This document shows positions 40 through 5,546 of a stretch of 6,259 nt of DNA, one piece after another. Each line of letters begins with the position of its first letter. The first letter of the stretch is position 1. The stretch spans positions 1 through 6,259 of the forward strand of contig JALHTB010000095.1 of assembly GCA_022865625.1 (NCBI GenBank), written 5' to 3'. Source of the stretch: Candidatus Bathyarchaeota archaeon. Lineage in GTDB: Archaea > Thermoproteota > Bathyarchaeia > 40CM-2-53-6 > FEN-987. A program made the position numbers and the translations under genes. The notes beneath the pieces were generated by a model. That model saw only the letters and a list, made by a program, of their open reading frames with translations, was not told the origin of the DNA and searched no databases.

Positions 40-1359
40 TTAGCTCCCACCCATGAATGGGTGTGGGCTTCTGGGCTTGCAGGCTACTATTTCTCTTGCC
101 CGTTCATCCCCAGCATAGGCCAAATCATCTGTGGCCTGTCGAGTCGTGGCCTTTGGCATGAAACACGACCCGATATTGATACCGCTGTTGTAGTCCGCGT
201 TGTAGATGAGCTCGCAGTCCCAGCAGTGAAAGATGCTCTGCGTGATGCGTTCGGTATGGCGTGAGCCGCAACGGTGACATGTCCGACTGGACCAACGTTC
301 GTCCGGTGTTTCAGAGCGTATGCCCTGTTTCGCGCATTCTTCTTGAATGTAGCGGATTTCTCGCCCATAGGTCCAACGGGCGAGTATTTTGCGAAGTCTT
401 GCCTTGTCGTTGCCCTTGAAGTTCTGATATTTGATGCCCTTCGGGTAGCCGACCACTACGAGGCAGTTCTGTGAAGTTGCGGCAATTTGCTTCGCCGCAA
501 GCCGGTCATAGTATTCGCTGACATGCAGTCTCTTGTGCCGGATGCGTTTCAGTGGCTCCCACTTCTTCGCACGCCGTAGTTCTGCTACTCGCTTCTCCAA
601 CCGGTTCAATCGATCCCGCTTCAACCCGTCCGTCTGGATTGCGAAGTCAGTTGACCTTAGAGGCTGATTCGGCCTGAGCATCACGGATGCTATTGACCGT
701 TTCACTCCAAGGTCGATACCACGAATCGTATAGACAGGTTGATCTGGAACCTCAAACTCTACCTTCACGTGAACGTGATATTTGCCGTTCTGCTTCACAA
801 GCTGAAAACTCTTCACTGTGCCTCGTTCCAAGAGGTCGAGATGATACTTTGCCGGATTCAATGGAATCGTGAGCTTCTCACCTCTCCGCAATGTTGAGAC
901 ACGTGCCACATAGGAGCAGAGTTTCAGATGCTTCGACCGTTCAATCGAGCCTATTCGATTGTCGAACCATATTGGAATCTTACCCTTCATCCCACGCGAG
1001 AACGGCTCTTGCGGTTCCCGTCGCAGAAGCTTGCGAAGCCACTTTTCATCACCTTCACTTCTGGCGATTGCGGCATTTCTACGCCACGCCTTGTGTGCTT
1101 CACGGTAACTCCACCACATCCAAGCCGTCGTATCGAAGCAACATTGAGTCATGGCGCCGCTGAGTTTCGCTTGTTCCTTGATGTCTGCGTGGAAACGCCG
1201 TCTATCTGCGTAGGAGCCTTTCAGCCCATGTTCCTTAGACAATTTCGACCATAACCAGGCGCCGTACGTGGTTCGTGCAGTTAACGAATCGAGAACTGAG
1301 AGCTTACGCCTCGTGATGCCGTAGTGGACTGGAACCTTCATAGTCTTGATAACGCGCAT
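40..1359 (-). CDS. tnpB: RNA-guided endonuclease TnpB family protein (IS200/IS605 OrfB), 439 aa
   Basis: TnpB proteins are RNA-guided DNA endonucleases, ancestors of Cas12, that help IS200/IS605 elements persist. Starting from ATG 1359, the order is an N-terminal helical/wedge region (about 1-210), RuvC-I GIDLGVKR with Asp216, a basic helical insert (about 245-300), RuvC-II VVVGYPKGI (about 301-309), a C4 zinc ribbon (Cys361/364/379/382), and RuvC-III YNADYNSGINI with Asp389. The usual RuvC-II glutamate is a glycine (Gly304). Glu354 in PDERWSS, just before the zinc ribbon, could replace it. The frame also extends to a TTG at 1428 behind GAGAGG. I chose ATG 1359 because a GGGGGG tract precedes it, a TATA-like TTTATAAC lies about 35 bp upstream, and the protein then opens with the family-like MRVIKTMKVPVHYG. 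The frame is intact and the length is normal. It is almost certainly TnpB; whether it still cuts is uncertain. Confidence 0.93.
   Translation of the reverse strand: MRVIKTMKVPVHYGITRRKLSVLDSLTARTTYGAWLWSKLSKEHGLKGSYADRRRFHADIKEQAKLSGAMTQCCFDTTAWMWWSYREAHKAWRRNAAIARSEGDEKWLRKLLRREPQEPFSRGMKGKIPIWFDNRIGSIERSKHLKLCSYVARVSTLRRGEKLTIPLNPAKYHLDLLERGTVKSFQLVKQNGKYHVHVKVEFEVPDQPVYTIRGIDLGVKRSIASVMLRPNQPLRSTDFAIQTDGLKRDRLNRLEKRVAELRRAKKWEPLKRIRHKRLHVSEYYDRLAAKQIAATSQNCLVVVGYPKGIKYQNFKGNDKARLRKILARWTYGREIRYIQEECAKQGIRSETPDERWSSRTCHRCGSRHTERITQSIFHCWDCELIYNADYNSGINIGSCFMPKATTRQATDDLAYAGDERAREIVACKPRSPHPFMGGS
45..67 (-). ncRNA. Right-end hairpin, likely 3' part of the TnpB omega RNA
   Basis: Bases 46-53 pair with 58-66 (8 bp, one bulged T at 64, TGAA loop on the plus strand). 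The hairpin overlaps the last codons of tnpB and its stop at 40-42. In characterised TnpB systems the guide (omega) RNA comes from the 3' end of tnpB and the right end, and its terminal hairpin is followed directly by the guide. If the element ends at 36, the guide would be read from the minus strand of bases 35 to about 16. The hairpin is seen in the sequence; the omega RNA role is inferred from the family. Confidence 0.45.
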
Positions 1360-1392
1360 CACGTTCCCCCCTGCACCATGATCCGCTGATCG

Positions 1393-1400
1393 GTTATAAA
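1393..1400 (-). promoter_or_regulatory. TATA-like box for tnpB
   Basis: The minus strand reads TTTATAAC here, inside the frame between the TTG at 1428 and the ATG at 1359. A start of transcription 25 bp downstream would fall near 1371, giving a leader of about 11 nt that carries the GGGGGG tract. This favours the ATG start over the TTG. Confidence 0.45.
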
Positions 1401-1468
1401 CCGCGGAGGGTTGTGCTTTCTTGCTCAATTCCTCTCTAACTCCCGTTCACTCCCGACGGTTCCGGCTG

Positions 1469-1888: not shown

Positions 1889-2596
1889 TCAGTGAAACGT
1901 AGGGGCTTCAACGAAACCACCTCCGCCACGTAGCGGAAGTATGTTCTCACCCACTACTTTGAATTTGGTTTTTCTGGACCCTAAAAGGGTCCTTTTCGGT
2001 TTGTCATCATAGACCTTCACACACGCTCTATATTCTCCCTCCGGATACCCGAAGGGAATCTTGTGACCCCAAACAGATTTGTGAACCCTCAAGAACCGTA
2101 GGAACCGAGAAGAACCACGCCCGTGCAGGAGCCCAGTATCCACTTTCCAATCATTTGTGTTGTAGTCCACCCACCACACATAATCCTTCTTGGTGTCTGG
2201 CAAGATCTTGTGGTCAGGCGAATCGACTAAGCATGTGAAGAAGCCGTTTTTCAGTTCGCCCCTGAAACGTGCCTCTAATCGGACGGTTTCGCCTACTAGA
2301 AATGTGTCTCCGTGTCTGCCAGATAGCCCAGTCACAAAGCGTTGGAACGGAAGACCTGATGTCTTCATTCCATGCCTAATCCACTCATAAGAGCTGTGGG
2401 CACTTGTGACCAGAAAAAGGGCAAAAATCACTGTTGACATTACAACAACTGCATAATACCCAATCTCGGAGGGCGGTAGATGAAAGAACCTGCCTAGCAA
2501 CTCGTTGACAAACTGCTTGATCTCGTCAGGCCATAGAAGACTCATAAGCGTAAACGCCCCGCTGGCGAGAGCCATGAGATAAGGTTTCCACTGCAA
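1889..2596 (-). CDS. Hypothetical membrane protein, two TM helices plus beta-rich soluble domain (235 aa)
   Basis: I do not recognise a named family. Hydrophobic helices lie at about residues 5-22 and 46-65, joined by a short loop with WPDEIKQFVNELLGRFFHLPP. Positive charges after the second helix (IRHGMKTSG, QRF) suggest both termini are cytoplasmic. Residues about 95-217 look like an Ig-like or other beta-sandwich: GETVRLEARF, NGFFTCLVDSP, a WW/DYNTNDW segment, and PEGEYRACVKVYD, a pattern typical of Ig-type edge strands. The tail is Gly-rich (GGGGF). The start is TTG 2596; an ATG at codon 8 (2575) is an alternative, and an upstream in-frame stop excludes a longer protein. No strong TATA or Shine-Dalgarno was seen. 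It is divergent from another 2TM protein at 2783. A membrane-anchored sensor or effector is possible but unproven. Confidence 0.75.
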   Translation of the reverse strand: MQWKPYLMALASGAFTLMSLLWPDEIKQFVNELLGRFFHLPPSEIGYYAVVVMSTVIFALFLVTSAHSSYEWIRHGMKTSGLPFQRFVTGLSGRHGDTFLVGETVRLEARFRGELKNGFFTCLVDSPDHKILPDTKKDYVWWVDYNTNDWKVDTGLLHGRGSSRFLRFLRVHKSVWGHKIPFGYPEGEYRACVKVYDDKPKRTLLGSRKTKFKVVGENILPLRGGGGFVEAPTFH

Positions 2597-2621: not shown

Positions 2622-2674
2622 GAGGTGCTGTCAAGTTGTTATCGGGTAGAGTAACCTGTCAAAAACCGTCGGGT
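2622..2674 (+). repeat. 53-bp intergenic repeat, copy A
   Basis: Aligned without gaps to the minus strand of 5417-5469, 37 of 53 bases are identical by hand count. Conserved blocks are GAGGT, CTGTCAAGTTG, TCGG, CCTGTCAA and CGTCGGGT. Each copy holds two CTGTCAA heptamers exactly 28 bp apart (here at 2628 and 2656). This copy lies in the divergent gap between the two 2TM genes. Its last GTCGGG (2668-2673) can also pair with CCCGAC at 2697-2702, just before the ATG at 2703. It could be an operator pair, an RNA element or a small mobile repeat. Confidence 0.6.
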
Positions 2675-2702
2675 CGAGAACCAATTCTGATCTTGCCCCG
2701 AC

Positions 2703-2786
2703 ATGGCAAAGGACGCTGCCGCCAAGAAACATGTCGATCTCTTGGGGTGTCTTAAATACGAAAGCAACTCCCCCATTTCCCCATGA
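2703..2786 (+). CDS. Possible 27-codon small ORF, ATGA overlap with next gene
   Basis: An ATG-started ORF encodes MAKDAAAKKHVDLLGCLKYE followed by SNSPISP. Its TGA (2784-2786) overlaps the ATG of the 2TM gene at 2783 as ATGA, the arrangement seen in translationally coupled genes. Against it, no Shine-Dalgarno or TATA was seen upstream, it is very short, and the likely TATA box of the downstream gene lies inside it. It would be translated only from a transcript starting upstream of 2703. Confidence 0.25.
   Translation: MAKDAAAKKHVDLLGCLKYESNSPISP
2751..2758 (+). promoter_or_regulatory. TATA box of the 2783 gene
   Basis: CTTAAATA is centred about 29 bp before the ATG at 2783. In archaea this spacing puts the transcription start within a few bases of the start codon, so a leaderless or near-leaderless mRNA is expected. 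No Shine-Dalgarno precedes the ATG, which agrees with that. Confidence 0.6.
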
Positions 2787-3385
2787 AACATACTACTACG
2801 CTTCGTCTGCTAGGTACGGTCATTGTAGTTGTCCTAGTGCTAGTGGTAGTCGTTCTACATCTGTCTGGTGCTGAGAATTTGATCCAATCAACGACAGAAC
2901 TTGTTCTCATACTTGTGAGCGTAGTCGGCACCATCGCAGTTCAACTAATGGTTTGGCCTGAGCGTTTTCTGAAACCAACGGACACGAGCGGGGTTGCTCC
3001 GGAAACTGTAAAAGAGATAGCAAAGGTCGAGGCGAAAACTGACGTTTTGAAACCGTGGCGGCAACAGCAGATCATGAAGTTGGGATTTCAGTCGTTAGTG
3101 AAGCAGGATTTGCTTGCAATAGAGCGGCAACTCGTCTTCCAAACCCCAAAGCGCATTGATTTCGAATCTTGGAACGACACTGACGCCGAAACGAAGAAGC
3201 GGTATGTTGACAAGGAAACCGTCTATAGGACTATAGACAATATTGCAAAGGTGCTGAATGAATGGAACACGGAGTTGGATAGGGCCTCTCTGTTGATGCT
3301 TGAACCTAACTCGGTACTATGGTTGTACATTCAAAGTTGCAAGAAGTACTATGAAAAGCTGAGAGCCATCGAATTTCTGAGCTAG
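2783..3385 (+). CDS. Hypothetical membrane protein, two TM helices plus helical cytosolic domain (200 aa)
   Basis: The N-terminus is two hydrophobic helices: about 8-27, an almost pure Val/Leu run, and about 39-57. A polar soluble part of roughly 140 residues follows. It is predicted mainly alpha-helical and charged (VKEIAKVEAKTDVLK, QQQIMKLGFQSLVKQDLL, TVYRTIDNIAKVLNEWN, CKKYYEKLRAIEF). The positive residues before TM1 and the WPERFLK segment after TM2 fit an N-in, C-in hairpin. The shape resembles small 2TM proteins with long helical tails such as the SLATT group, but I see no defining motif and do not assign it. ATG 2783 is supported by the TATA box at 2751-2758. Its TAG overlaps the stop of the convergent RHH gene as CTAG. 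A TTTTCTCTT stretch at 3394 may aid termination. Confidence 0.8.
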   Translation: MKHTTTLRLLGTVIVVVLVLVVVVLHLSGAENLIQSTTELVLILVSVVGTIAVQLMVWPERFLKPTDTSGVAPETVKEIAKVEAKTDVLKPWRQQQIMKLGFQSLVKQDLLAIERQLVFQTPKRIDFESWNDTDAETKKRYVDKETVYRTIDNIAKVLNEWNTELDRASLLMLEPNSVLWLYIQSCKKYYEKLRAIEFLS

Positions 3386-3522
3386 GGAACACCTTTTCTC
3401 TTGAAGTACTCACCTAGCACGGCTCTTACGGTCTCGGGTACTGATTCCAGCTTTCGGGCTTTTCGTTCTTGATCTAGTGCTTTGACCATGTCGTCTGACA
3501 TGGCTACCATGACTTTGTGCAT
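3382..3522 (-). CDS. Ribbon-helix-helix (CopG/MetJ-type) DNA-binding protein, 46 aa
   Basis: This gene is small enough to be missed by routine ORF calling. It encodes one beta strand (MHKVMVAM, 1-8), helix A (SDDMVKALDQERKARKLES, about 9-27) and helix B (VPETVRAVLGEYFKRKG, about 28-44), the layout and length of CopG-like RHH repressors, which dimerise and insert the paired strand into the major groove. ATG 3522 follows a TATA-like GTATAAAGG on the minus strand (3562-3570), implying a leader near 18 nt. Two perfect 9-bp repeats, 10 bp apart, lie between TATA and start, where a repressor would block transcription. It is convergent with the 2TM gene, sharing CTAG at 3382-3385. No toxin partner is adjacent on the same strand. 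The likely role is autorepression and control of the divergent transposase (inference). Confidence 0.8.
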   Translation of the reverse strand: MHKVMVAMSDDMVKALDQERKARKLESVPETVRAVLGEYFKRKGVP

Positions 3523-3537
3523 TGCCAAATTGGACAC

Positions 3538-3596
3538 GGTACACATAGGTACACATCGCAACCTTTATACCTTCCGCATGTGTATAGCTATGTGTA
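3538..3596. promoter_or_regulatory. Symmetric divergent operator: four ATGTGTA/TACACAT heptamers around a TATA core
   Basis: TACACAT occurs at 3540-3546 and 3550-3556, within perfect GGTACACAT repeats at 3538 and 3548 that are exactly 10 bp apart. Its reverse complement ATGTGTA occurs at 3578-3584 and 3590-3596, 12 bp apart. The whole array is a dyad centred at 3567-3568, on the TATA-like CTTTATAC. RHH proteins commonly bind tandem or inverted half-sites about one helical turn apart as cooperating dimers. The array covers the expected transcription starts of both the RHH gene (minus) and the transposase (plus). The repeats are seen; the identity of the binding protein is inferred. Confidence 0.7.
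3563..3570. promoter_or_regulatory. TATA-like core between RHH gene and transposase
   Basis: The plus strand reads CTTTATAC and the minus strand GTATAAAG. Used leftward it would start transcription near 3541 for the RHH gene at 3522. Used rightward it would start near 3592 for the transposase at 3608. One near-symmetric box may serve both, or the minus direction may dominate. Confidence 0.5.
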
Positions 3597-3607
3597 GCGA
3601 TTGGAAT

Positions 3608-4762
3608 ATGCCGTTCCCAAGACCGATTGACGAGGGCCGCGTGATGAGAGGCCAAGAAATCAGCAGACTAGAGGGCCAAGTCTCGCGTCTGGATGAGAAG
3701 GCCTACCAAGTCAAGTCACAGTCAGGACACGGACTCTACACAGTCGTCAGAGGCTACCGTGACTATTGGCGTTGCTCTTGCCCTGACCACATCTACCGTG
3801 AGGTCAAGTGCAAACACATTTGGGCCGTCGAGTTCAGCCTTAGACTGAGAGACAAGGTACGTGAGAATGTCGTAATCCAGCCACTCACAGTCAACTCGTG
3901 CCTGTACTGCGGTTCGAACGAAATCATCCGAGATGGGCTACGGCACAACAAGTCAGGCGACATTCAGGTTTTCAACTGCAAGTCATGTCACCGATACTTC
4001 ACAGTCAACCTAGGCTTTGAACGCATGAAGCACAATCCTCAAGGCATCACGACCGCCATGCAACTCTACTTCTCTGGCGAGAGCCTACGGAATACGGCTC
4101 GCTCTCTCCGACTGATGGGAGTCCAAGTCAGTCACCAGACCGTCTATAATTGGATACAGAAGTACACGGGCTTGATGGAGAAATATCTGGACAAGATCAC
4201 TCCCCAAGTCTCAGACACATGGCGAGCAGACGAACTCTATGTGAAGATCAAAGGCGACATGAAGTATGTCTTTGCGATGATGGACAACGAGACACGGTTC
4301 TGGATAGCGCAGGAAGTTGCGAACACGAAAGAGTCACATGATGCGAGACATCTATTCCAAATCGCCAAGGAGAGAACGGGAAAGAAACCCGACATTCTGA
4401 TAACTGACGGCCTACGCTCGTATCATGAGGCGTGGATGAAGGAGTTCAGAACCGTCAAGCTCGTTGATACGACTGTTCATATCCGCAACATCACGCTTGC
4501 AGGTAACCACAATAACAACAAGATGGAACGGCTCAACGGGGAGATCAGAGACCGAGAAAAGGTCATGCGCTCGCTCAAGAAAGATGACACACCAATCCTT
4601 ACAGGTATGCAGATCTTCCACAACTACGTTCGACCACACGAGGGACTAGATGGGCGTACACCGTCAGAGCTTGCGGGCATCCAAGTCGAAGGCGAGAACA
4701 AGTGGCTAACACTCATCCAGAACGCGAGCAAGACGTGCCCGAGACGGCTTATAAACGAATGA
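3608..4762 (+). CDS. IS6-like DDE transposase with SWIM zinc finger, 384 aa
   Basis: Domains counted from ATG 3608: a SWIM zinc finger WRCSCPDHIYREVKCKHIWA (Cys56, Cys58, Cys68, His70); a C4 zinc ribbon (Cys98/101 and Cys124/127); a helix-turn-helix-like region with SGESLRNTARSLR and VSHQTVYNWIQKY (about 157-186); then an RNase H-fold DDE core with Asp208 (WRADELYVKIKG), Asp267 (ILITDG) and Glu307 (NNNKMERLNGE). The C-terminal FHNYVRPHEGLDGRTPSELAGI is typical of IS6/IS240-type cores. All catalytic residues and the full length are present, so it is probably active. The frame runs back to 3482. The promoter core at 3563-3570 makes 3608 the best start, with ATG 3644 behind a GAGGG tract as the alternative. 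It is divergent from the RHH gene, whose operator overlaps this promoter. Confidence 0.93.
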   Translation: MPFPRPIDEGRVMRGQEISRLEGQVSRLDEKAYQVKSQSGHGLYTVVRGYRDYWRCSCPDHIYREVKCKHIWAVEFSLRLRDKVRENVVIQPLTVNSCLYCGSNEIIRDGLRHNKSGDIQVFNCKSCHRYFTVNLGFERMKHNPQGITTAMQLYFSGESLRNTARSLRLMGVQVSHQTVYNWIQKYTGLMEKYLDKITPQVSDTWRADELYVKIKGDMKYVFAMMDNETRFWIAQEVANTKESHDARHLFQIAKERTGKKPDILITDGLRSYHEAWMKEFRTVKLVDTTVHIRNITLAGNHNNNKMERLNGEIRDREKVMRSLKKDDTPILTGMQIFHNYVRPHEGLDGRTPSELAGIQVEGENKWLTLIQNASKTCPRRLINE

Positions 4763-4767
4763 AAAGA

Positions 4768-4772
4768 TTTTT
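4768..4772 (+). terminator. Oligo-T termination signal after the transposase
   Basis: TTTTT begins 6 bases after the transposase stop. Archaeal RNA polymerase terminates at short T runs on the non-template strand without needing a hairpin, so this is a plausible but weak terminator. Confidence 0.35.
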
Positions 4773-4801
4773 AGCTGCACTAGCACAATCGCATATCCAA
4801 C

Positions 4802-4872
4802 GTTTAGCGGCAGGCCGGAGTGCCTCGGTGTCGTAAGACACTCTGATGGGCTCGGCCCATCTGCCGCTAAAC
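4802..4872. other. 71-bp structured inverted-repeat element, possible ncRNA or non-autonomous element
   Basis: A perfect 12-bp stem (GTTTAGCGGCAG at 4802-4813, CTGCCGCTAAAC at 4861-4872) encloses two further hairpins. One is GTGTC-GTAA-GACAC (4828-4841), with a GNRA-type tetraloop if read on the plus strand. The other is ATGGGC-TCG-GCCCAT (4846-4860), stacked directly on the main stem. GAGTG at 4818-4822 can also pair with CACTC at 4839-4843, which would exclude the tetraloop hairpin. The element fills the gap between the convergent transposase and NYN genes. It matches no RNA family I recognise: it lacks a tRNA T-loop and box C/D motifs. It could be an RNA, a bidirectional terminator structure, a MITE or a repeat at the IS boundary. 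Confidence 0.6.
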
Positions 4873-4879
4873 CCCTACA

Positions 4880-5362
4880 CTAATTCTTGAACTGTCTGAT
4901 GCTACTGGTCAAATCTATAACCCTACTTGCCGTAGTCGTCAGCGACATCGATAATTGCTTTCTAAAAGAAGCGACCTCGACGCTTTTGTTCAAGGACCTG
5001 AGTTTTCTGACGGCAGGGGCAAAATCTCCATCTCCACTCGCCAGAAGTGCAATATCGAACAAATCGGTGTAGGCTCCACTGACCATGTCAACCGCAATTT
5101 GGACATCAACCTCTCTCTGAGGATGATCTTGAACTTTCTTCGGACCAAGAACAAGTTTGTAGCCAAGAATTTGCAATCTTGAATAGAAGGCGAGTTCACC
5201 GAGTTCACTCGACTTGCTATTGTAGTAGTTTGCAAGAACGACCACTCGATTTCCTGCGAGAAATGCCTTAAGACGACGATAGTTGATTCTGATGCCCATA
5301 TCCTTGGATGCCCTATCGATGTTAGCACCGTCAACAAAAATCGCTAGTCGCGGCGCTGTCAT
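4880..5362 (-). CDS. NYN domain protein (LabA/DUF88-like putative ribonuclease), 160 aa
   Basis: NYN domains are PIN-like nucleases that cut RNA with metal ions held by conserved acidic residues. From ATG 5362 the visible motifs are LAIFVDGANI with Asp11, REVDVQIAVDMV with Asp86 and Asp92, and LLASGDGDFAPAV with Asp111 and Asp113, the standard order and spacing for the LabA/DUF88 branch. The whole protein is a single NYN domain with no extra partner domain, ending VIDLTSSIRQFKN. A GTG three codons upstream (5371) is an alternative start. I chose the ATG because TATA-like TTATAC at 5383-5388 is about 24 bp away, predicting a near-leaderless message. It is convergent with the transposase. Substrate and partners cannot be read from the sequence; LabA-like proteins occur in RNA turnover, toxin-like and defence settings. 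Confidence 0.9.
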   Translation of the reverse strand: MTAPRLAIFVDGANIDRASKDMGIRINYRRLKAFLAGNRVVVLANYYNSKSSELGELAFYSRLQILGYKLVLGPKKVQDHPQREVDVQIAVDMVSGAYTDLFDIALLASGDGDFAPAVRKLRSLNKSVEVASFRKQLSMSLTTTASRVIDLTSSIRQFKN

Positions 5363-5382
5363 GTACTGCACTTGCGGGCGAC

Positions 5383-5388
5383 GTATAA
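5383..5388 (-). promoter_or_regulatory. TATA-like box of the NYN gene
   Basis: The minus strand reads TTATAC, centred about 24 bp before ATG 5362. This spacing predicts transcription starting at or very near the start codon. The 53-bp repeat copy B lies 29 bp further upstream. Confidence 0.5.
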
Positions 5389-5416
5389 CTGACTTGCCCT
5401 GAGGTCACAACCCGCC

Positions 5417-5469
5417 ACCCGACGAAAGTTGACAGGCACAAGGAGCCGACGGCAACTTGACAGAACCTC
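5417..5469 (-). repeat. 53-bp intergenic repeat, copy B
   Basis: This is the partner of 2622-2674, in inverted orientation, with 37/53 identities and no gaps. Its two TTGACAG heptamers (plus strand, 5429 and 5457) have the same 28-bp spacing as in copy A. Read on the minus strand it points toward the NYN promoter and ends 29 bp before the TATA-like box, a place where an activator or repressor could act. Confidence 0.6.
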
Positions 5470-5546
5470 TGCCGACCATGCTTAAATGCCCTGACGAAAA
5501 AGCGCGGCATGTTCACCACTCGCTAAGTTAACACTGTGCCAGAACC

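Follow-up and report, generated by a model that had tools for sequence, protein, structure and literature searches.

The question posed by this locus is whether a very small putative regulator governs the mobility of the transposase gene next to it and, if so, to whom that regulator belongs. As stated in an earlier sequence-only reading of the 6,259-nucleotide stretch of DNA analyzed here (hereafter, the window), a gene for a 46-aa ribbon-helix-helix (RHH) protein is present, divergent from an intact IS6-like transposase. That reading had contemplated two situations: an insertion sequence under RHH control, or an insertion sequence that landed beside a host repressor and captured its operator.

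Both situations can be judged from the borders of the element. Two inverted-repeat pairs (2612-2645/5446-5479 and 2655-2674/5417-5436) were found to be a single pair of ends, with TCTGCCGA flanking both. Because the merged repeats are directly flanked by this octamer on both sides, they delimit one complete-looking transposon of 2,844 bp (2624-5467) that encloses the RHH gene and the transposase. The left terminal inverted repeat (TIR; 2624-2676, plus strand, beginning with GGTGCTGTCAAG) and the right one (5415-5467, minus strand, beginning with GGTTCTGTCAAG when read inwards) match each other in inverted orientation by BLAST (E 1.5e-5), and they are recognized with E-values of 4e-6 and 1e-7, respectively, by an end profile whose training set included both of them. 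The two copies of the target site duplication (TSD; 2616-2623 and 5468-5475) are identical at 8/8 positions and lie directly outside both repeats, so that the 8-bp duplication of the IS6 family is present here, and the ends start with GGTGCTGT/GGTTCTGT, as expected for IS6 (GG, CTGT). Instead of the short, 15-20 bp terminal repeat of that family, the window has a repeat of about 50 bp, composed of two tandem motifs (CTGTCAA...CGG in the left one), spaced 28 bp apart in both ends. Four genes lie inside: a passenger for a 200-aa protein with a hydrophobic N-terminus (2783-3385, plus strand), the RHH gene (3382-3522, minus strand), the transposase (3608-4762, plus strand) and a second passenger for a 163-aa NYN/LabA-like putative nuclease (4880-5371, minus strand; Pfam NYN 6e-25, PADLOC NYN 4e-15 and HEC-09 1e-12). 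The 200-aa product, judged by eye to be a putative membrane protein, had no above-cut-off match in Pfam or NCBIfam and none in PHROGs or PADLOC. The RHH gene sits 0.76 kb inward from the left end and, being inside the TIR/TSD borders, it is therefore carried by the transposon, which argues against the capture of a host repressor's operator; the notion of a bare insertion sequence proved to be of the wrong scale, since the actual unit is a 2.84-kb transposon with two passenger genes. On the outer side, the insertion point at 2624 falls just upstream of a 235-aa ORF (1889-2596, minus strand), which the insertion has perhaps separated from its promoter, and a TnpB-family protein (with a Cas12f1-like TNB domain) is encoded outside the transposon at 40-1428 (minus strand).

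The transposase has an IS6-like DDE domain (Pfam DDE_Tnp_IS240, 58.1 bits against a cut-off of 27) preceded by a SWIM-like and zinc-ribbon-like part, whose matches lie just below the curated cut-offs (18.5 against 19.6 for Pfam SWIM); the NCBIfam IS6 model scores 122.8 against 125. Residues D208, D267 and E307, which were assigned as catalytic, are invariant across 24 aligned transposases, the window protein included. The reading frame is open to 4762, and the ATG at 3608 was preferred as the start because homologs begin there (384 aa), further in-frame ATGs being found at 3578 and 3590, each contained in one of the two ATGTGTA repeats described below. Among the 120 homologs listed of 5,324, several carry a precomputed SWIM domain and five have a named organism (four Bathyarchaeia and one "archaeon"). 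The upstream extensions of two of the 24 aligned proteins (P0001, 91%, and P0022, 78%) parallel the window's read-through of the RHH start and promoter, which suggests that they may have the same RHH/promoter arrangement. No resolvase domain was detected by Pfam or NCBIfam in the seven window ORFs scanned.

The 46-aa RHH protein scores 20.4 bits with Pfam RHH_1, whose cut-off is 20.5. Its AlphaFold2 model (mean pLDDT 91) is that of a monomer, with an extended N-terminus followed by two helices, and thus the predicted fold corresponds to the strand-helix-helix of RHH regulators (CopG/Arc/MetJ), in which the strand would pair only in the dimer. The top Foldseek matches were NikR, CopG and Arc with probabilities of 0.92-1.0, at E-values of only 0.05-0.4, none below 0.001. 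Two codons upstream of the ATG there is an in-frame TTG (3528), which would yield a 48-aa protein beginning with M-A-M-H-K and resembling the M-A-M-K-K of its relatives in the family alignment, and may be the start matching the homologs. A co-operonic toxin gene is absent: the gene following RHH, that for the 200-aa protein of no known family, is convergent and overlaps the RHH end.

The region between the two start codons contains four exact heptamers, TACACAT at 3540-3546 and 3550-3556 (plus strand) and ATGTGTA at 3578-3584 and 3590-3596 (minus strand), arranged as two direct and two inverted copies around one central TATA-like core (TTTATA, 3564-3569), which is roughly 43 bp away from the start codon on either side (3522 and 3608) and could act as a bidirectional promoter. 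The arrangement proposed in the sequence-only reading was thus confirmed, including the placement of the left pair in perfect 9-bp repeats one helical turn apart (GGTACACAT beginning at 3538 and 3548, 10 bp). The claim of a fully symmetric operator stood only in part: the putative left arm (3538-3556, plus strand) has a spacing of 10 bp and the putative right arm (3578-3596, minus strand, inverted to the left one) a spacing of 12 bp, and the array is therefore symmetric in plan, not to the base. These four heptamers are the window's entire set, with 0.55 expected and four reached in 1 of 200 shuffles, and TACACAT is absent from the transposon ends in this whole-window count. A stricter score, which requires a pair of direct copies spaced by 9-12 bp and, separated from it by 10-40 bp, a pair of inverted ones, attained its maximum of 42 in the window; when these 95 bp were shuffled 2,000 times with dinucleotides preserved, no shuffle equaled it (best, 34).

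These observations can be integrated by assuming that the RHH protein is the transposon's own repressor, a self-limiting switch acting on the four heptamers, a reading to which we assign a probability of roughly 0.8 and in which binding and repression are inferred. RHH dimers would bind the four heptamers on either side of a single, probably bidirectional TATA promoter, and the occupied arms would extend over the transcription start regions of both genes and keep out TBP/TFB or the polymerase, so that RHH would limit its own synthesis and that of the transposase together. Upon entry into a new cell, where no RHH is present, a brief burst of transposase would be expected, and transposition would be shut down as RHH accumulates; both the start sites and this burst-then-silence behavior are what we infer. 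The array could also serve for activation by RHH, or RHH could act on transposition itself.

Support for this proposal was sought in relatives. Scanning the GTDB 220 species genomes with the 24-sequence transposase alignment, the best 80 of 200 loci being retained, and IMG/VR, which added five more, gave 85 transposase loci, the bulk of them, judged by their record titles, from Bathyarchaeota, Thaumarchaeota and Methanoperedens; viral contigs scanned with the window transposase alone gave no match. Relatives of the window RHH protein lie divergent from the same transposase family in 10 of the 85. The reverse search, of 398 genomes with the RHH protein, yielded 20 matches in 13 genomes, and 13 of the 20 adjoin a transposase of the family, the two sets overlapping in that L127 repeats L056 and L134 repeats L053. 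The other seven comprise four members of one subfamily (L135, L137, L144 and L146), two single cases (L136 and L139) and a fragment (L143); the latter and L014 (32% over 40 aa, away from the main transposase) were the only missed or degenerate copies found in the fetched loci. By eye, the RHH gene of the four-member subfamily is divergent from a gene whose product has a SLPAGVKI.KFYD motif, and host use of the regulator is possible there. On a quick transposase tree of 101 rows, 20 of them with the window RHH family (L140 and L129 were left out), presence of the RHH gene required 11 changes against 18.4 in shuffles (0/500 reached so low a value), and at least eight changes are imposed by strongly supported branches. 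The RHH gene therefore clusters on the tree, with repeated gain or loss.

The array recurs together with the gene. Among 22 RHH-plus-transposase loci (duplicates L089, L090, L127 and L134 were dropped), the four-site geometry was found at p < 0.05 in 16 and fell short in six; the combined Fisher p, 6e-17 with the window and 5e-15 without it, is overstated because the loci are related. The geometry was present in one of six RHH loci lacking the transposase (L139; Fisher 0.08), and in 1 of 43 control stretches taken inside the transposase (Fisher 0.84). A further control, the regions upstream of the transposase in TSD-bounded elements without the window RHH family, gave 7 of 43 (Fisher 0.004), and the seven positives (L001, L008, L010, L016, L050, L080 and L084) may carry operators of their own, since each has another small divergent ORF. 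The sites vary in sequence from locus to locus (CAATAGG, ATACCAA, TAGATAT and others), so that the heptamer was rejected as a family signature and only the geometry is common to the loci. Consequently, of the expectation that RHH gene and TACACAT arrays would recur beside archaeal transposases, the gene and the array geometry were borne out and the sequence was not kept.

With transposase distance and GC held constant, operator composition tracks RHH distance (partial Mantel r 0.60, p 0.0002; 18 loci, L025, L129, L131 and L140 being left out), and it does not track transposase distance when RHH distance and GC are held in the same 18 loci (r -0.03, p 0.53). Without these controls, the correlations were 0.75 for RHH and operator, 0.47 for transposase and RHH, and 0.41 for transposase and operator. 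That the site sequence follows the RHH protein is what control of both genes by a single repressor would predict. In 12 other loci the transposase has an in-frame ATG 45-100 bp away from the RHH start, and in 11 of them, L145 being the exception, the best TATA-like site is no more than 5 bp off the midpoint of the two start codons. No in-frame transposase ATG exists within 100 bp in 9 of the 22 loci, in some of them owing to an intervening small ORF. In six loci (L051, L056, L063, L130, L142 and L145), a very short ORF (29-35 aa, mostly acidic, of the type MTTEQARFEM..DEFEEW..) starts at or near the array and lies ahead of the transposase, past the RHH promoter.

The window transposon is one of a family of bounded elements. 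An end profile was trained on 52 ends from 27 loci, among them the window. When end pairs were picked by profile score alone, an exact 8/8 duplication was found at zero shift in 42 of 60 loci and within two bases in 46 (duplicates L114, L122 and L123, the last a duplicate of L016, were left out). For loci outside the profile training the figures were 21 and 23 of 34, respectively, and mismatched ends from different loci gave 1 in 3,600. In many loci no pair of ends was found, in a good part of them for the reason that the contig or the retrieved sequence stops too early. The working set, in which the duplication was also used for choosing the pair and shifts of up to four bases were allowed, consists of 48 elements with a perfect 8-bp duplication, 2,210-5,663 bp in length (median 3,364), 43 of them at zero shift; L041, with shifts of -4 and +2, is the least certain. 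Each element end carries two tandem TGTnAA....CGnnG-like motifs, 27-28 bp apart in 37 of 49 ends measured, and the two copies within an element resemble each other by eye. As opposed to the absence of passengers usual in IS6, all 48 elements contain at least one further ORF of at least 125 aa that is neither transposase nor regulator-slot gene. A transposase match at 1e-100 was present in 15 of 256 genomes from the class of one Bathyarchaeota genome. The genome of L056 (G003) has ten transposase matches, eight of them partial, which look like signs of repeated invasion and decay.

Copies lacking the RHH gene, which the sequence-only reading had regarded as speaking against its proposal, are in fact the majority: of the 48 TSD-bounded elements, only five have the window RHH family and 43 do not, although 32 of these 43 hold another recurrent family in the slot divergent from the transposase. 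Altogether, 37 of 48 elements have in this slot a small protein from one of the recurrent families (RHH, AbrB/MazE-like or zinc-ribbon). All but one (L064) of the 43 have a divergent ORF of at least 35 aa in the slot, a count of 42 in which some may be chance ORFs and that of L124 lies outside the element. Iterated profiles placed a second RHH group in 14 of the 43 (L035, L117 and L008 weakly, E 0.0005-0.004) and a zinc-ribbon family, with putative DNA binding, in seven. The second RHH group matches solved chains of the CopG family, omega and ParG, as well as the archaeal-virus regulator SvtR (2kel), and its model (pLDDT 92) has two helices after an extended segment. Ten more slots fall into four recurrent small families that we labeled AbrB_a to AbrB_d; L016 and the five elements with the window RHH family complete the count of 37. 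Pfam MazE_antitoxin matches 8 of the 42 slot proteins at E-values up to 0.1, L016, L028, L040 and L042 being among the matches in single scans, and the group-a label of L017 was given by eye, as this protein has no Pfam match. Other assignments made by eye are L044 (RHH) and L010, L050 and L084 (AbrB-like); in L001, L018, L079, L080, L082 and L124 the slot is filled by some other ORF or a doubtful one, and a group-a gene is found on the opposite side of the transposase in L064 and L079. The 3,000 comparison ORFs for these profiles are not an independent control because they were drawn from the same loci, and many of the matches among them were these slot ORFs themselves or those of other loci. 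Such variety of slot proteins may reflect selection for escape from repression by related elements already resident.

Three other explanations for the RHH gene have to be weighed against that of a transposon-borne repressor. RHH proteins are often antitoxins, and the window protein might be a cargo antitoxin or plasmid-type regulator whose array autoregulates RHH only, with the transposase controlled separately. Such a role would suit a fold so common among antitoxins and the four of the seven transposase-free matches (L135, L137, L144 and L146) that lie divergent from another gene, but it accords poorly with the lack of a partner gene after RHH in the same direction, where the next gene is convergent and overlapping, with the presence of a single TATA and a single array between both start codons, and with a slot beside the transposase that is kept while its occupant changes; we consider it unlikely. 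Transposon regulators can have a second role, as the Tn3 resolvase does in being both repressor and recombinase, and by this precedent RHH could bind the array and yet act mainly in the transposition reaction, as an architectural factor or in target immunity. The array, however, lies between the start codons, 0.9 kb from the left transposon end and 1.9 kb from the right one, and the ends themselves lack TACACAT, which makes this alternative quite improbable. The explanation that an insertion sequence took over the operator of a host RHH gene next to which it had landed could draw on the patchy occurrence of RHH among relatives, with its 11 changes on the tree, and may describe the ancestral gain of the gene; as an account of the window copy it is highly improbable, given that RHH lies within the TIR/TSD borders and recurs with the transposase in many genomes. 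The reading of RHH as the transposon's own repressor is therefore preferred.

At the level of the family, we consider it fairly likely that these elements represent a widespread, apparently undescribed group of archaeal transposons, characterized by an IS6-like transposase with an N-terminal zinc-binding part, bipartite ends of about 50 bp, 8-bp duplications, a few cargo genes that include defense-type ones, and interchangeable slot regulators, the repressor and its operator forming a swappable immunity module. If this is true, elements sharing a repressor would silence each other and those with different repressors would not, which would select for repressor turnover.

The window regulator shares the RHH fold and the use of short-repeat arrays as operators with the Omega, CopG, NikR and AvtR/SvtR repressors. 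Omega operators are heptad arrays. The window protein differs from these in having only 46-48 aa, no effector domain and a putative operator common to the transposase. Tn7-like transposons use the Tn7 machinery, in contrast to the single IS6-like transposase, the few cargo genes and the 2-6 kb of the elements described here. Like this family, they are bounded by TIR/TSD and carry defense genes, according to the text available of one report (PMC8649781). A small regulator near the transposition genes and common control sites are also found in the control region of Tn3 (tnpA-res-tnpR), and, in the accessible part of an account of Tn3 elements, RHH or AbrB-type antitoxin modules were repeatedly acquired beside transposition genes (PMC7157771); here there is a lone RHH with no toxin partner recognized, an unrelated transposase and archaeal hosts.

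Another related system is the IS6 family (IS26, IS240 and archaeal ISH/ISC), which has the same type of DDE domain, ends that begin with GG..CTGT and 8-bp target duplications. In the table rows available from one source (PMC6807381), archaeal members measure 696-853 bp, with transposases of 211-237 aa and TIRs of 12-34 bp, as opposed to the 384-aa transposase with an extra N-terminal zinc-binding part, the bipartite ends of about 50 bp, the cargo and the repressor-like gene found here. The long zinc-finger IS6 elements of Clostridia (clades VII/VIII, or h/i) likewise have an extra N-terminal zinc-finger domain and, in several cases, an 8-bp TSD; they are 1.2-1.8 kb long with TIRs of 12-32 bp, and a repressor gene is not mentioned in the available part of that source (PMC6807381). 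The only passenger-carrying IS6 member named in the accessible text of a 2021 review is the bacterial ISDsp3 (PMC7986276), and that of a 2019 survey of the thaumarchaeal mobilome states that composite transposons with passenger genes were not detected in archaea, thaumarchaea included (PMC6563490). The 48 elements of one transposase lineage, with perfect duplications and cargo, contrast with this statement. The portions available of PMC7986276, PMC6807381, PMC6563490, PMC7157771 and a 2026 survey of archaeal immunity (PMC12988326) do not describe an IS6-like transposon of archaea that has cargo, long bipartite ends or an RHH repressor, and none of the papers listed in searches of an open-access library reports, by title or start of abstract, the same kind of element. 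This lineage of archaeal cargo transposons is apparently undescribed within that scope, and may have appeared elsewhere, in subscription papers, preprints or ISfinder. A transposon with a divergent repressor is a known kind of arrangement, and its archaeal cargo-transposon setting looks new; the RHH/operator pair offers a minimal model, amenable to testing, for the way in which transposition of an archaeal element may be restrained by the element itself.

The cargo was surveyed in 91 ORFs, namely 94 ORFs of at least 125 aa outside the window, minus five (one slot gene, one transposase piece and three overlapping or doubtful), plus the window's two; as the selection was mechanical, some are spurious, and two slot ORFs (L018 and L080) are still included. 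With 25 of 30 Pfam families listed, the matches at 1e-5 were N6_Mtase (six), Methylase_S (five), GmrSD_N (two) and HNH (two), together with single matches to NYN (the window), AbiV-HEPN, HSDR_N, Mrr, ParB and others, and integrase or transposase domains of other elements. At least 46 of the 91 have no Pfam match, since the matches sum to at most 45. PADLOC (25 of 224 families listed) concurs on the methylases and reports mad2 in seven. Restriction-modification, GmrSD and AbiV-like genes are thus among the cargo, and the element borders delimit short gene modules, many without known function, that lie beside them and are candidates for archaeal defense. Weak relatives of the window NYN protein were found in L118 and L037 (24% over 145 aa and 39% over 41 aa, respectively). 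Six loci (L015, L039, L042, L044, L046 and L057) carry large proteins related to one another by BLASTP, which probably are the six N6_Mtase matches, and L008 and L013 have a cargo gene in common, probably accounting for the two GmrSD matches.

Searches of the window for tRNA and Rfam RNAs found none. Between the transposase and the NYN gene, a perfect 12-bp inverted repeat closes a 71-nt hairpin (4802-4872), which has no Rfam match and no BLAST match among the fetched loci and for which the RNA fold of 4795-4880 gives -41.6 kcal/mol (z -4.9).
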